64,000 bases of DNA, from contig NZ_CP010868.1 of NCBI RefSeq assembly GCF_000875775.1, positions 434,001 to 498,000 of the forward strand, read 5' to 3'. Shown here in pieces: positions 48,918-53,454 of this stretch. The translations under genes and the position numbers were made by a program. Within the stretch, counting starts at the first letter, position 1. Every line of letters starts with the position of its first letter. The notes under the pieces are model-generated. The model made no database searches. It had not been told where the DNA came from and saw nothing but the letters and a program-made list of their open reading frames with translations. This stretch comes from Nitrosopumilus piranensis (lineage in GTDB: Archaea > Thermoproteota > Nitrososphaeria > Nitrososphaerales > Nitrosopumilaceae).

Positions 48918-49304
48918 TTATTTTGCTTTTTCAATTACTTTTATGAGGTTGTCTTCTATTTCTTCACCTGAAAATTTGAGATTATTTTCTGATACCATAG
49001 AAAGTAAAGATGTAGGTCTTGCCAAACTGATGTAATTTTCATTATCTTTTTGATATACTGCAATTGTACATGGCAATAATAATCCCAAGTCTGGGTTTGC
49101 CTCTAGAACTTGTTTTGCCAAGTTGGGATTACATACCTCCATGAGTCTGTAATTATCTGCAAATTTCAGTCCTTTATCTGCTAAAATCTTTTTAAAATCT
49201 AGAGTCTCAAGCACTCCAAATCCTATTTCTTTTAGATCTTCTGTCAGAGTAGTTATTACCTCATCAATGCTCTTTTGTGTTTTTACCGTATGTGTAAAAC
49301 TCAT
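48918..49304 (-). CDS. DUF302 protein
   Basis: 128 residues: SIDEVITTLTEDLKEIGFGV, YRLMEVCNPNLAKQVLEANP and LGLLLPCTIAVYQ are the DUF302 pattern with its Cys in CNP and PCTI. Members are linked with sulfur and thiol chemistry in many genomes. It is divergent from the double-rhodanese gene at 49417 and shares the promoter region with element copy a (49345). Confidence 0.82.
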   Translation of the reverse strand: MSFTHTVKTQKSIDEVITTLTEDLKEIGFGVLETLDFKKILADKGLKFADNYRLMEVCNPNLAKQVLEANPDLGLLLPCTIAVYQKDNENYISLARPTSLLSMVSENNLKFSGEEIEDNLIKVIEKAK

Positions 49305-49344
49305 TGGATATAGTTTTCATTTTAATCATATATTGCAAAAATAC

Positions 49345-49380
49345 GATTTCCACACTTGAAAACTATTGATGAAAAATGTG
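49345..49380 (+). promoter_or_regulatory. 36-nt shared element, copy a (rhodanese 1)
   Basis: Begins GATTTCCACACTTGAAAA and ends GATGAAAAATGTG. It matches copies at 50991, 51399 and 52260. A TTTTAATATAAT box follows and the ATG of 49417 is 36 nt after the element. Confidence 0.75.
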
Positions 49381-49416
49381 TTTTAATATAATAATGATTC
49401 ATGTTTTTCTCTGTTT

Positions 49417-50163
49417 ATGCAAACAAAAAATATTGGAATTATTGCATCTGTAATTGTTGGAATTGCAATAACTGGTGCAATAGTTTTGGGGACAAATACT
49501 GTAGAGGACACTGTTGATAAATTTGCAGTAAATGCAGATACAGTTGATGTGTTACTGCAAAACAGCGAACGTGTTTTTGTTATAGATATTAGAACTGCAG
49601 AACAGTATCAGTCAGGTCATATTGATGGCGCATCTCATGATGTTTTAGATTCTACAACTCTAGAAAAAAGAGTAAAAACAATCCAAAATAGATTGCCTGA
49701 AGTTGCATCAACATACAATTTTGTTTTAGTTGATGATGATGGAACTCAAGCAAAACAAGCAGCTCAAGCCATGACTGAGATGGGAATTCAGACGTTCTAT
49801 CTTGATGGAGGTATTAGTTTGGATGGGGATCTTATGACTCGTTCTCAAACAGTGATTGATTCAAAAGAATTGATGCAAAAACTTGATGCAAATGAGGACA
49901 TATTCTTACTTGATGTAAGAGAGCCTAATGAGTTATTAGAATCAAAAATTGATGGTGCAGTAAATATCCCACTTGCCCAAATATTTCAACCAGGTGGAAT
50001 GGATGAAATTCCTACTGATAAACCAGTGGTAATCATCTGTGGTTCTGGAAACAGAGCAACAATTGCTACCTATGCCCTTGCACAAGAAGGTGTTGACTTT
50101 CAGGTATTGGAAGGTGGAATGAAGGCATGGAATCCAATGATTCAAGCACAATCAGGAATGTAA
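49417..50163 (+). CDS. Membrane-anchored double rhodanese
   Basis: 248 residues: N-terminal anchor (IGIIASVIVGIAITGAIVL), first rhodanese domain (about 35-140: VFVIDIRTAEQYQSGHIDGA) that has Asp in place of the active Cys (VLVDDDGTQ), and a second (about 145-243) with the active loop IICGSGNRATIA (Cys208). The exterior location suggests sulfur transfer outside the cytoplasm. It carries element copy a and is a relative of 52333. Confidence 0.85.
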   Translation: MQTKNIGIIASVIVGIAITGAIVLGTNTVEDTVDKFAVNADTVDVLLQNSERVFVIDIRTAEQYQSGHIDGASHDVLDSTTLEKRVKTIQNRLPEVASTYNFVLVDDDGTQAKQAAQAMTEMGIQTFYLDGGISLDGDLMTRSQTVIDSKELMQKLDANEDIFLLDVREPNELLESKIDGAVNIPLAQIFQPGGMDEIPTDKPVVIICGSGNRATIATYALAQEGVDFQVLEGGMKAWNPMIQAQSGM

Positions 50164-50227
50164 ATTCCTCAATTCTTTCTTTTTATTAAATCAAGATTAT
50201 ATGTTATGACAAATTGAATTTCTGTAA

Positions 50228-50578
50228 TTGGCAGATTTTAAAATTCTAGCAAGGGACTCTAATCTTAGAAAAGCAATTCTAAAAGCATTATCTGATGATT
50301 ATTCTAGAACAATCATGAACTATACCATAGAAAAACCAAAATCTGTTGTAGAGATTGTCAAGGAATGTGATATTCCAATGACTACTGCATATAGACGTGT
50401 AAAAGAACTTGAGGAAAGCAAAATTCTCAAAGTTACAGGTTCTATTGTTACTGATGATGGAAAGAAATACTTTCTTTATCAAAATAGACTAAAGGCAATC
50501 TATGTTATATTTGGTTTAGAATCATTAGATGTACAAATCGTAGACAATGATGGTATGGGAACTAGTGCTTATTGGTAA
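50228..50578 (+). CDS. Winged-helix transcription regulator
   Basis: 116 residues from TTG. LRKAILKALSDDYSRTIMNY, KPKSVVEIVKECDIPMTTAY and RRVKELEESKILKV form an ArsR-like winged helix related in design to 28232-28624. It sits between genes carrying the 36-nt element and is a natural candidate to bind it. Tail-to-tail overlap of 10 nt with the zinc-ribbon gene. Confidence 0.75.
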   Translation: MADFKILARDSNLRKAILKALSDDYSRTIMNYTIEKPKSVVEIVKECDIPMTTAYRRVKELEESKILKVTGSIVTDDGKKYFLYQNRLKAIYVIFGLESLDVQIVDNDGMGTSAYW

Positions 50579-51472: not shown

Positions 51473-52012
51473 ATGAAATCAATTCTGAAATATTCCATTT
51501 CTGGAACTGTATTGGCTACTCTTTTGGTTGTTGCAGCAATATCATTCCATGGTGGAAATTATGAGGCAGATGCCCTAATTGGTGCTCAAAGTTCTTCTGA
51601 ATTAGGACTAGAAGGTGAACGGGCACGAATGGGATTAGGCACTGGATATGATGATAGACTCTATGTTGTTCATATCACTAGTGGAGATCCTAACAGTCAA
51701 CACCAAGTACATTCATCTATGATGGGCATTCAACATGCCAAGGCATTTCAAAGTGCTGGAAAAGATGTAATAGTTTTCTTGGATGTTGATGGTGTTCGCA
51801 TTGCAGATGAAGACAGACCTACAGCCCTTACAGTTCAGCATGAAGCCCTAAAGGAATTTTTGAACAATGGTGGTAGGGTTATTGCATGTGAACATTGCAT
51901 AGGAAGCTTTGATGTAGATAATCTTCTACGTGGTGTAGAAGTTGATCCTCATCCATACATGCCTAAAATTCAAAAAATACTATCCGAAGTTGATGTAGTG
52001 TTAGATTACTAA
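51473..52012 (+). CDS. Secreted DsrE/DsrF-like sulfur-carrier protein
   Basis: 179 residues: signal (ISGTVLATLLVVAAISF) then a DsrE fold with RLYVVHITSGDPNSQHQVHS, VIVFLDVDGVRIAD, and FLNNGGRVIACEHCIGSF (Cys139 and Cys142), the site where DsrE-family proteins carry persulfide sulfur. Export of a DsrE-like protein is uncommon and places it with the anchored rhodaneses. Under element copy c. Confidence 0.8.
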   Translation: MKSILKYSISGTVLATLLVVAAISFHGGNYEADALIGAQSSSELGLEGERARMGLGTGYDDRLYVVHITSGDPNSQHQVHSSMMGIQHAKAFQSAGKDVIVFLDVDGVRIADEDRPTALTVQHEALKEFLNNGGRVIACEHCIGSFDVDNLLRGVEVDPHPYMPKIQKILSEVDVVLDY

Positions 52013-52051
52013 CATCACTTTTTTTATTTTTTAAATTCTCATACAACTGTT

Positions 52052-52207
52052 TTATTCAAAATCTAGTGAGGAACCACAATTGTCACATGATATTCCCAAT
52101 TCATTTGAAAAAATCTTTGCACTATCACAAACAAGACATTTTCTTGTAATCTTGGCATAGAATCCAATATTCTCTGAAAAATTTGTATTCTTTAATCGTA
52201 GTTTCAT
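52052..52207 (-). CDS. 51-aa zinc-ribbon protein, paralogue of 50783
   Basis: ATG 52207, TAA 52052. MKLRLKNTNFSENIGF, KCLVCDSAKIF and ISCDNCGSSLDF. Same length and cysteine positions as 50783-50938. Each of the two lies just before an element-driven gene and is transcribed away from it. Confidence 0.6.
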   Translation of the reverse strand: MKLRLKNTNFSENIGFYAKITRKCLVCDSAKIFSNELGISCDNCGSSLDFE

Positions 52208-52259
52208 GAATAGGTTATCTCATGATGATATATTACAAAAATACATAATTTCCAAAAAC

Positions 52260-52295
52260 GATTTCCACACTTGAAATTCATCATTGAAAAATGTA
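52260..52295 (+). promoter_or_regulatory. 36-nt shared element, copy d (rhodanese 2)
   Basis: Begins GATTTCCACACTTGAAATTC and ends ATTGAAAAATGTA. Upstream ATATTACAAAAATACATAAT matches copy b. A CTATTTTAATTC box follows; ATG 52333 is 37 nt later. Confidence 0.75.
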
Positions 52296-52332
52296 TCTTC
52301 TATTTTAATTCAAAATTCACATATCATTTTTC

Positions 52333-53454
52333 ATGGTAAGTCAACCATTATGGATTGCAATTGTAGTTGGAGTATTTTTTGTCGGATTGGCCTCCAGCTA
52401 TGCCATATTTTCAGCAACCTATGATCCTGTTTCTATGAAGTTTACCACACAGGAAAAATTTGACCAAATGATGGGAAATAATCCTATGATGGTACAACAT
52501 TGGAGCAGTATGTCATCTCAACACCAAAAGCAGATGGGAACCATGATGCAAAATGGAACCATGATGCAAGATCAACAAATGGGAACCATGATGCAAAGTG
52601 GTACGCATGATTCTATGAAAAAACATGAATCAATGCATGATGTGATAATGCGTGCTGTTGGTGATTCTGAAATGAAACAACCAGTTCTAGATGAAATGCA
52701 AAGACATCATGAAATTATGTTTAATTTGATTGAACAAGCAGTTGATGATCCTGAATTAAAACAACAACTGCAAGACAAAATCCAAAAATACATGGATAAA
52801 TCTACTGTAACAAACACAGACTTTGCAATCTCAGCTGATGATTTGTATGCAAAAATGCAACAAGAAGAACTCTTGTTTGTAATTGACATTCGAGATGTAG
52901 AAGATTACAACCAAGGTCACATTGAAGGATCTGCAAAGGGATCCTGTGATGATCATGCAAAAGAAAAGATTTTGCCTAAAATGCCAACATCAGTTAGTGT
53001 CGTACTAGTTGGTTATGATGGTGTCAAAGCAGCAGAAACTGCTTCAATGATGGCCAAGATGGGATTAGATGTATCATATCTTGAAGGAGGTATTGAAAGC
53101 TGGGACAAAGGATTAGTAGAAAGTAACTATGATCAGAAAGTTTCAGCAGATGCTCTTTGGAACAAACTAGACTCAAACCAAGATATCTTCTTGCTTGATG
53201 TAAGAGAGCCTGAAGAAGTTGCAGAGACTGCAATTTCATCTAGTGTAAACATTCCATTGGGCGAACTCTATGATTCAGATAGAATTTCAGAGATTCCAAA
53301 TGACAAAGAGATTGTGATTATCTGTGCTTCAGGAAATAGAGCAGTGATAGCATCATTTGCTTTGGCAAACGAAGGATATGATTATCAAATACTAGATGGT
53401 GGCATGAAAGGATGGAATTCCTACTTGGAAGAAAATAATCTTCCTAACTTCTAA
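52333..53454 (+). CDS. Membrane-anchored Met-rich double rhodanese
   Basis: 373 residues: anchor helix (LWIAIVVGVFFVGLASSYAI), then a Met/His-rich stretch (about 48-105, MMGNNPMMVQHWSSM, QMGTMMQNGTMMQ) typical of copper(I) binding, a first rhodanese-like domain without active Cys (VVLVGYDGVKAA) and a second with IICASGNRAVIA (Cys331). It is related to 49417 but with an added metal-binding module, which suggests sulfur transfer linked to copper. Under element copy d; a dispersed repeat follows. Confidence 0.85.
   Translation: MVSQPLWIAIVVGVFFVGLASSYAIFSATYDPVSMKFTTQEKFDQMMGNNPMMVQHWSSMSSQHQKQMGTMMQNGTMMQDQQMGTMMQSGTHDSMKKHESMHDVIMRAVGDSEMKQPVLDEMQRHHEIMFNLIEQAVDDPELKQQLQDKIQKYMDKSTVTNTDFAISADDLYAKMQQEELLFVIDIRDVEDYNQGHIEGSAKGSCDDHAKEKILPKMPTSVSVVLVGYDGVKAAETASMMAKMGLDVSYLEGGIESWDKGLVESNYDQKVSADALWNKLDSNQDIFLLDVREPEEVAETAISSSVNIPLGELYDSDRISEIPNDKEIVIICASGNRAVIASFALANEGYDYQILDGGMKGWNSYLEENNLPNF

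Follow-up and report, generated by a model that had tools for sequence, protein, structure and literature searches.

Here we describe a 6-kb island in the marine ammonia-oxidizing archaeon Nitrosopumilus piranensis, with roughly a dozen genes that are mostly sulfur-handling or of no assigned role and whose promoters share one dyad element upstream of TATA. We consider it probable that this island is a self-contained regulon with which Nitrosopumilus-type archaea respond, at the cell envelope, to reactive sulfane sulfur in the form of sulfide, persulfide, or polysulfide. No description of the element or of the island was found in the literature searched, and to our knowledge, few operators with a candidate regulator have been described for ammonia-oxidizing archaea, organisms that drive much of marine nitrification. 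The operator is defined precisely, a regulator can be proposed, and the gene list is closed, which makes the island amenable to testing in what is probably a cultivated species. The island also links several families of unknown function, namely, DUF302, DUF1264, 51-amino-acid Zn ribbons, and a pair of small membrane proteins with two Cys each, to a single process. Should sulfur be the signal, this would open a molecular route to understanding how these archaea deal with the sulfide of coastal sediments and oxygen-poor water.

The promoter element and the genes of the island

The features of the island are as follows, with coordinates given for the window, i.e., the whole stretch of 64,000 nucleotides that was analyzed.

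47261..47328, +, copy of a dispersed repeat of ~65 nt, left edge of the island
47348..47659, -, small membrane protein, 103 aa, with an N-terminal TM and two invariant Cys; element upstream
47695-47732, -, element copy 5, dyad plus proximal half-site, 38.9 bits, upstream of the two-Cys membrane protein (ATG 47659)
47759..48469, -, secreted or anchored protein, 236 aa, no Pfam family; weak divergent element
48502..48542, weaker element pair between divergent genes, 23.9 bits on - and 13.7 bits on +, cores 13 bp apart
48576..48899, +, second two-Cys membrane protein, 107 aa, with the Cys pattern of the 47348 protein
48918..49304, -, cytoplasmic DUF302 protein (Pfam PF03625, E=9.5e-18), divergent from copy a, dyad shared
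49344..49381, +, element copy a, 45.2 bits; the dyad also faces DUF302, 14.3 bits on -
49417..50163, +, membrane-anchored double rhodanese (Pfam PF00581, E=1.5e-29)
50228..50578, +, winged-helix (wHTH) regulator candidate, 116 aa, HTH_20, 65 nt 3' of the rhodanese
50783..50938, -, Zn-ribbon-type protein, 51 aa, two CxxC pairs
50990..51027, both strands, element copy b, 35.5 bits on + and 29.2 bits on -; core common to the Zn ribbon and the acidic peptide
51064..51303, +, secreted acidic peptide, 79 aa; orthologues in L102 and L107
51398..51435, +, element copy c, 47.3 bits
51473..52012, +, secreted DsrE-fold protein (Pfam PF02635, E=9.6e-5, barely over the gathering score)
52052..52207, -, second Zn-ribbon-type protein, 51 aa
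52259..52296, both strands, element copy d, 42.3 bits on + and 34.1 bits on -; shared core
52333..53454, +, anchored Met-rich double rhodanese (Pfam PF00581, E=2.8e-31)
53473..53540, +, further copy of the dispersed ~65-nt repeat, right edge of the island

The initial annotation had reported four 36-nt elements, at 49345, 50991, 51399, and 52260, all on the plus strand. We re-found all four, every copy agreeing with a 37-nt consensus at 31 to 33 positions (the top match in 50 shuffled windows reached only 21 to 24), and added a fifth on the minus strand. The constant gap of 36 to 38 nt between the end of the element and the ATG was reproduced when re-measured, and the TATA-like box is where it had been placed. 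The internal structure of the element, in contrast, had to be redrawn. What actually recurs is a 22-bp dyad, YRRTTTYCAn4TGRAAAYYR, with a third, promoter-proximal half-site, TGRAAAnTGT, followed by TATA at a fixed distance, the ATG lying 71 to 72 nt on. A dyad does exist in copies b and c, for which TTTCCA/TGGAAA had been proposed, but it reads TTTYCA-n4-TGRAAA and is present in all copies; the TGGAAA taken for one of its arms is actually the third half-site. A profile of 71 sites contains the dyad, the third half-site, and TATA at offsets 43 to 47, with the ATG at 71 to 72 in 55 of the 71.

The cores at 49344, 50990, and 52259 are bidirectional, being common to the DUF302 gene, already recognized as divergent from copy a, and to the two 51-aa Zn-ribbon genes. 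Since several dyads serve divergent genes, about 10 promoters are involved, that of DUF302 included, and at the level of sequence these carry the dyad and the third half-site immediately before TATA, with constant spacing. Weaker copies are also present in the divergent region at 48505-48539, and this weak-pair arrangement (48502..48542) occurs at locus L102 as well.

The whole 1.71-Mb genome was scanned as tiled regions covering all but 909 bases, and sites scoring >12.5 bits were confined to C1:481.7-486.3 kb, the highest score elsewhere being 12.1 bits with a position weight matrix (PWM) whose training set included some of this genome's own sites. In the same whole-genome control, column-permuted matrices gave maxima of 2.0 to 17.7 and 0 to 2 matches of >10 bits. 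Thus, all convincing sites fall within 4.6 kb (window 47.7-52.3 kb), in agreement with the earlier proposal of a single regulon under a single element. It could be argued that the repeats reflect a recent duplication of promoter DNA and have no regulatory meaning, or that they are a mobile repeat, as the promoter copies b, c, and d are alike at 71 to 73% over ~90 nt. However, across at least three genera, the same dyad precedes many genes that are not homologous, with diverging flanks, no convincing copy lies elsewhere in the genome, and the phase with TATA and ATG is fixed, so that this explanation is hardly credible.

Both the 49417 and the 52333 proteins have two rhodanese domains (PF00581) with a catalytic Cys loop in the second. 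Domain 1 of the 49417 protein lacks the catalytic Cys, and its domain 2 has the loop CGSGNRA; in the 52333 protein, domain 2 carries the predicted active loop CASGNRA. The 51473 protein resembles DsrE/DsrF in Pfam match, fold, and conserved Cys, with an invariant pair, CxHC (C139, C142). Sequence searches returned no solved relatives for it, and a fold search with Foldseek was needed to retrieve 3mc3 (E=1.1e-6) and DsrEFH 2hy5 (E=2.1e-5). The family of the 47348 protein is present in further Nitrosopumilus genomes; a fold search with a modest model of the two-Cys membrane protein gave no significant match. Orthologues of the 47759 protein in L093 and L102 likewise carry the element. A CopC identity considered for this protein was dropped because there was no Pfam match.

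Conservation of the element and its candidate regulator

Other genomes keep the dyad/TATA architecture ahead of the same gene families, with ~120 element matches in relatives from at least three genera and at least 10 gene families preceded by the element. The initial annotation had made its proposal depend on the element standing upstream of orthologues in sister genomes; it was looked for there and found. Several pattern matches with 3 mismatches were excluded from the site count because they resemble conserved coding sequence; one example is ATTGTCAAAGAAGGTATTGAACCATGG in G013, with near copies in G002 and G084.

In G001, G029, G036, and G071, the element precedes a gene predicted to encode a rhodanese-rhodanese-persulfide dioxygenase fusion. 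Its sequence suggests a persulfide dioxygenase of the ETHE1/CstB type, with a metallo-β-lactamase (MBL) fold in which THLHADH fits HxHxDH and with likeness to PDO-rhodanese proteins; the nearest solved chains are 3tp9 (E=8e-38), 3r2u, 5ve3 (BpPRF), and 4chl (ETHE1). The PWM scan found no element at this genome's own fusion gene (C1:672163). N. maritimus-type genomes have the rhodanese, DsrE, and the small Cys protein without a 50228-type wHTH or the element, and in G006 and G036, DsrE adjoins a different, double-wHTH regulator, with no element there.

The wHTH at 50228, previously named as a possible regulator, is likely the regulator of the element, as judged from co-occurrence (p about 1e-16) and from its own site in one genus, g17 (G231/G232), where the element lies in the wHTH promoter. 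Orthologues (≥69% identity) are present in 18 of 250 genomes. Among the 14 genomes with an element match of ≤1 mismatch, 13 have such an orthologue (Fisher p=7e-17, 250 genomes), although related genomes and one conserved cluster are non-independent observations, and the p values therefore overstate the association. Rhodanese promoters carry the element in 13/13 genomes with the wHTH and in 0/3 without it. Furthermore, the orthologues in relatives adjoin the same rhodanese, and identity within the genus is 84 to 91% for the wHTH and 66 to 71% for the rhodanese. Element-like sites with no wHTH orthologue detected occur in G069, G072, and G220 (78 to 85% complete), G082 (95%), and G055 (99%).

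A paralogous wHTH, itself preceded by the element in G067, G068, G082, and G092, may share the site. That such another factor is the one that binds, with the 50228 protein merely traveling along, seems improbable. The paralogue has a similar recognition helix (IPMSTVYRR versus IPMTTAYRR) and its own element, and G082 has elements and no 50228 orthologue; however, wider-level matches to 50228 occur in 191/250 genomes, nearly all without the element, and it is the close orthologue that tracks the element.

An alignment of 17 wHTH orthologues revealed no invariant Cys, the single Cys being replaced by Tyr in L112 and by Leu in L223/L224, and hence, a thiol switch in this protein was rejected. As it has no conserved Cys or His, a non-thiol ligand or a partner, e.g., the co-regulated Zn ribbons, may do the sensing.

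The probable signal and the proposed circuit

Sulfur-handling families dominate the island, as had been noted, and the relatives add the rhodanese-persulfide dioxygenase fusion. Because the element precedes this fusion in relatives, a response to reactive sulfane sulfur is favored. It is also of note that DUF302 is found in sox clusters of sulfur oxidizers (PMC5037610). The claim that all products but DUF302 are exported does not hold for the enlarged regulon, in which no export signal is evident for the Zn ribbons, the wHTH, or the dioxygenase fusion.

In the proposed circuit, the 50228 wHTH would very probably bind the element, presumably as a dimer on the dyad with contact to the proximal half-site, and since it would very probably be made from the rhodanese transcript, a feedback loop would be closed. 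The position of the site suggests that the protein activates rather than represses; SurR sites upstream of TATA activate (PMC12162507). Judging from the protein families, sulfane sulfur would be captured outside the cell by the anchored rhodaneses, DsrE, and the two-Cys membrane proteins and inside by DUF302 and, in relatives, by the rhodanese-rhodanese-persulfide dioxygenase, and the captured sulfur may then be moved or oxidized by these products.

Only tentatively do we propose a fuller, joint reading, namely, an undescribed archaeal regulon in which a winged-helix activator with no conserved Cys, acting through a dyad-plus-third-half-site operator in fixed register with TATA, turns on an extracytoplasmic system for handling sulfane sulfur (anchored rhodaneses, secreted DsrE, two-Cys membrane carriers, DUF302, and persulfide dioxygenase) that shields copper-dependent ammonia oxidation from sulfide, with a partner protein, and not the activator, reading the sulfur signal.

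Copper is a weaker rival to reactive sulfane sulfur. In a copper or soft-metal stress or homeostasis regulon, the Met-rich rhodanese, the acidic peptide, and the DUF1264/Met-rich secreted proteins would bind metal, and the rhodaneses and DsrE would mend metal-damaged thiols or supply metal-binding ones. Met-rich stretches are present in the 52333 protein and in the element-bearing DUF1264 and 187-aa proteins of relatives, and these members fit copper at least as well as sulfur. Moreover, copper is needed by ammonia-oxidizing archaea (PMC7785015), and a CopC-like membrane protein, not matched to an island gene, increased with H2O2 in three Nitrosopumilus strains (PMC6593220). Nevertheless, we regard this explanation as rather unlikely: no CopA-, CopZ-, CopC-, or CopD-type gene was seen among the element-bearing genes, 47759 has no CopC match, the wHTH lacks conserved Cys or His, the fusion is by its predicted function a sulfur enzyme, and the element differs from the copper-limitation motif of Nitrososphaera viennensis, TTCSGSMTTTGWACYANT (PMC7785015). 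A general response to thiol or oxidative stress (H2O2, arsenite), in which the sulfurtransferases would act in repair, would be in line with work on Thioalkalivibrio, where arsenite evoked a response of DsrE/F-like genes and of a rhodanese (PMC6620896), but it is quite improbable, given that none of the genes seen with the element encodes a peroxidase, a thioredoxin, or a methionine sulfoxide reductase, and none is an ars gene.

Comparison with known systems

By the tests made, the island works like the bacterial Cst/BigR or the archaeal SurR circuits and belongs to none of them. As in cst/bigR systems (CstR, BigR, SqrR), a local regulator is placed over rhodanese-type sulfurtransferases (PMC5823870, PMC9774590), relatives of the island add a persulfide dioxygenase-rhodanese fusion as in CstB/Blh/BpPRF, and the candidate regulator, like BigR, is a winged-helix protein. 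As to the gene content, the rhodaneses bear the element here, and the dioxygenase fusion bears it in four relatives and not in this genome. In contrast to BigR, which has a Cys pair (PMC5823870), the 50228 wHTH has no conserved Cys, and hence no redox Cys pair. The island genes do not form a single operon, a separate promoter serving each of them or each divergent pair, and the site lies upstream of TATA, as expected for an activator, whereas the Cst/BigR repressor site lies on the promoter. In addition, the rhodanese domains precede the dioxygenase in the relatives' fusion, and the island system adds two-Cys membrane proteins, DUF302, DUF1264, and Zn ribbons.

SurR of the Thermococcales is likewise an archaeal, ArsR-related winged-helix protein linked to sulfur, with a long motif of three half-sites, GTTn3AACn5GTT (PMC12162507). 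However, SurR consists of two wHTH domains, the N-terminal one with a CxxC switch, whereas the 50228 protein has 116 aa with a single HTH_20 and no CxxC; the island motif is TTTYCAn4TGRAAA plus TGRAAAnTGT, and SurR controls hydrogenase and sulfur-reduction genes, unlike those of the island. Finally, the N. viennensis genes behind the copper-limitation motif encode CopC/D and multicopper oxidases, and the motif itself is different, but there too a promoter motif is shared among genes of an ammonia-oxidizing archaeon, 35 to 70 nt before the start codons (PMC7785015).

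Architecture and confinement of the promoter element

The four copies of a 36-nt element described in the initial annotation (copy a, position 49345; b, 50991; c, 51399; and d, 52260) were all present at those positions when the sequence was checked. Each matches a 37-nt consensus at 31 to 33 positions; in shuffled windows, the best match reached 21 to 24. A fifth copy had been missed:

47695-47732, minus strand: fifth element copy, ahead of the ATG at 47659 of a small two-Cys membrane protein

Copies a, b and d are each common to a divergent gene pair, namely, DUF302/rhodanese, Zn ribbon/acidic peptide and Zn ribbon/Met-rich rhodanese, respectively, and an offset pair of weaker matches lies between the genes at 47759 and 48576. 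A seed pattern served to train a position weight matrix, which was iterated on 41 loci and re-derived from 65 primary sites. The resulting 71-site profile contains a 22-bp dyad, YRRTTTYCAnnnnTGRAAAYYR, with a third half-site, TGRAAAnTGTnT, located 13 bp downstream in direct orientation and a TATA box at offsets 43 to 47. The ATG is located at 71 to 72 in 55 of the 71 sites, which had been preselected at 66 to 76 nt from a start; without this filter, the distance is mostly 70 to 74, and a group at 79 to 81 represents one gene family. A mirror half-site and mirror TATA appear upstream of the dyad because many dyads are common to divergent genes.

The window spans bases 434001 to 498000 of the single N. 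piranensis contig, which is 1,713,078 bp long. When this genome was scanned in tiles covering all but 909 bases, all sites above 12.5 bits fell within one 4.6-kb stretch, with a maximum of 12.1 bits elsewhere; 20 column-permuted matrices gave maxima of 2.0 to 17.7 bits and 0 to 2 matches above 10 bits. The scores of the genome's own sites are flattered since the training set came partly from this genome, but their confinement is unaffected. The element therefore belongs to the sulfur island and is not a feature of the genome's promoters at large. The following features also lie in the window:

27873-27935, 44076-44131, 47261-47328 and 53473-53540, plus strand: dispersed repeat of ~65 nt (10 copies genome-wide, 4 in the window)
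44554-47244, plus strand: secreted protein of 896 aa carrying a Kunitz/BPTI protease-inhibitor domain (Pfam E=2e-10), adjoining the island

Such a domain is unusual for an archaeon. The repeat holds two short inverted repeats, and two copies bracket the island as direct repeats; in a related genome (G075), a copy lies directly 3' of the rhodanese gene (locus L126, 9923-9972). Is it a mobile-island boundary or a 3'-end structure?

Conservation of the element and its association with the wHTH protein

Of 95 congeneric genomes, 12 contain the seed pattern when at most one mismatch is allowed, and none contains the reversed control. Orthologues in sister genomes do carry the element, including those of the rhodanese, both two-Cys proteins, DUF302 and the Zn ribbons. 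In other genomes, sites also precede genes for a DUF1264 protein containing a Met-rich stretch, a Met-rich protein of 187 aa, a membrane protein of 142 aa, another wHTH protein and a rhodanese-rhodanese-persulfide dioxygenase. Many relatives keep the orders two-Cys protein/site/two-Cys protein, DUF302/site/rhodanese-wHTH and Zn ribbon/site/variable gene; the order is partly kept in a record named Nitrosarchaeum and reduced in genus g17. In genome G044, the rhodanese orthologue is disrupted by several stops, and its element has decayed as well (17 bits; locus L098, 11687-12419). Genome G035 holds the cluster twice near both contig ends (C1, 19761 and 1904694; constant offset, 1,884,933 bp), likely an unclosed circular overlap. 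A palindrome of related but different sequence, ATTTCCAAATATGGAAAT, with ATTTAAAAATTT after it, occurs in two further genomes (G014, C25:27898 and C31:5586; G015, C7:24249) and may be the operator for a different regulator.

Among 250 family genomes, 18 encode a close orthologue of the wHTH protein at 50228, and these 18 include 13 of the 14 with strong elements (Fisher p=7e-17, a value inflated by shared ancestry and physical linkage). Three further lines are less sensitive to linkage: in G231 and G232, the element lies immediately upstream of the wHTH gene itself; unlinked elements, such as those before the dioxygenase fusion in G001 and G036, are found in wHTH-bearing genomes; and homologous rhodanese promoters carry the element in 13 of 13 cases with the wHTH and in 0 of 3 where it is missing. 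The exceptions are G055 and G082, which have sites and no wHTH orthologue. In G006 (locus L125, 10134-12442), where the rhodanese, DsrE and two-Cys genes adjoin a different, double-wHTH regulator and the element is missing, the regulator has apparently been replaced. The G036 DsrE, 94% identical to that of the window, adjoins the same regulator type and has no element. The sulfur module thus looks to have been rewired between local regulators.

Sulfane sulfur or copper

The rhodanese, DsrE and DUF302 assignments made initially were borne out by profile searches and, for DsrE, by fold as well. Each double rhodanese has an active Cys loop in its second domain only. DUF302, a family with no assigned function, occurs in sox clusters of sulfur oxidizers (PMC5037610), and the dioxygenase fusion of relatives is similar to solved PDO-rhodanese fusions and ETHE1. 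Together, these findings favor sulfane sulfur. Given the Met-rich proteins, copper stays a real rival. The "surface relay" proposed earlier is offered here as a hypothesis.

Proposed mechanism and comparison with known systems

The dyad suggests that the candidate regulator acts as a dimer. Because the element lies directly upstream of TATA at a fixed phase, it would be an activator site, as are the SurR sites upstream of TATA (PMC12162507). Across 17 orthologues, the wHTH protein has no invariant Cys or His and, therefore, unlike BigR (PMC5823870), is not obviously a sensor of thiols or metals. A small molecule or a partner may bring the signal to it; the coregulated Zn ribbons are candidates only. 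No report of the element or regulon was found in the set of papers searched. Sulfur-responsive local regulons are already known as a kind; this one differs in its operator architecture, in a candidate regulator that lacks conserved Cys, in its individual promoters and in an extracytoplasmic set of genes.
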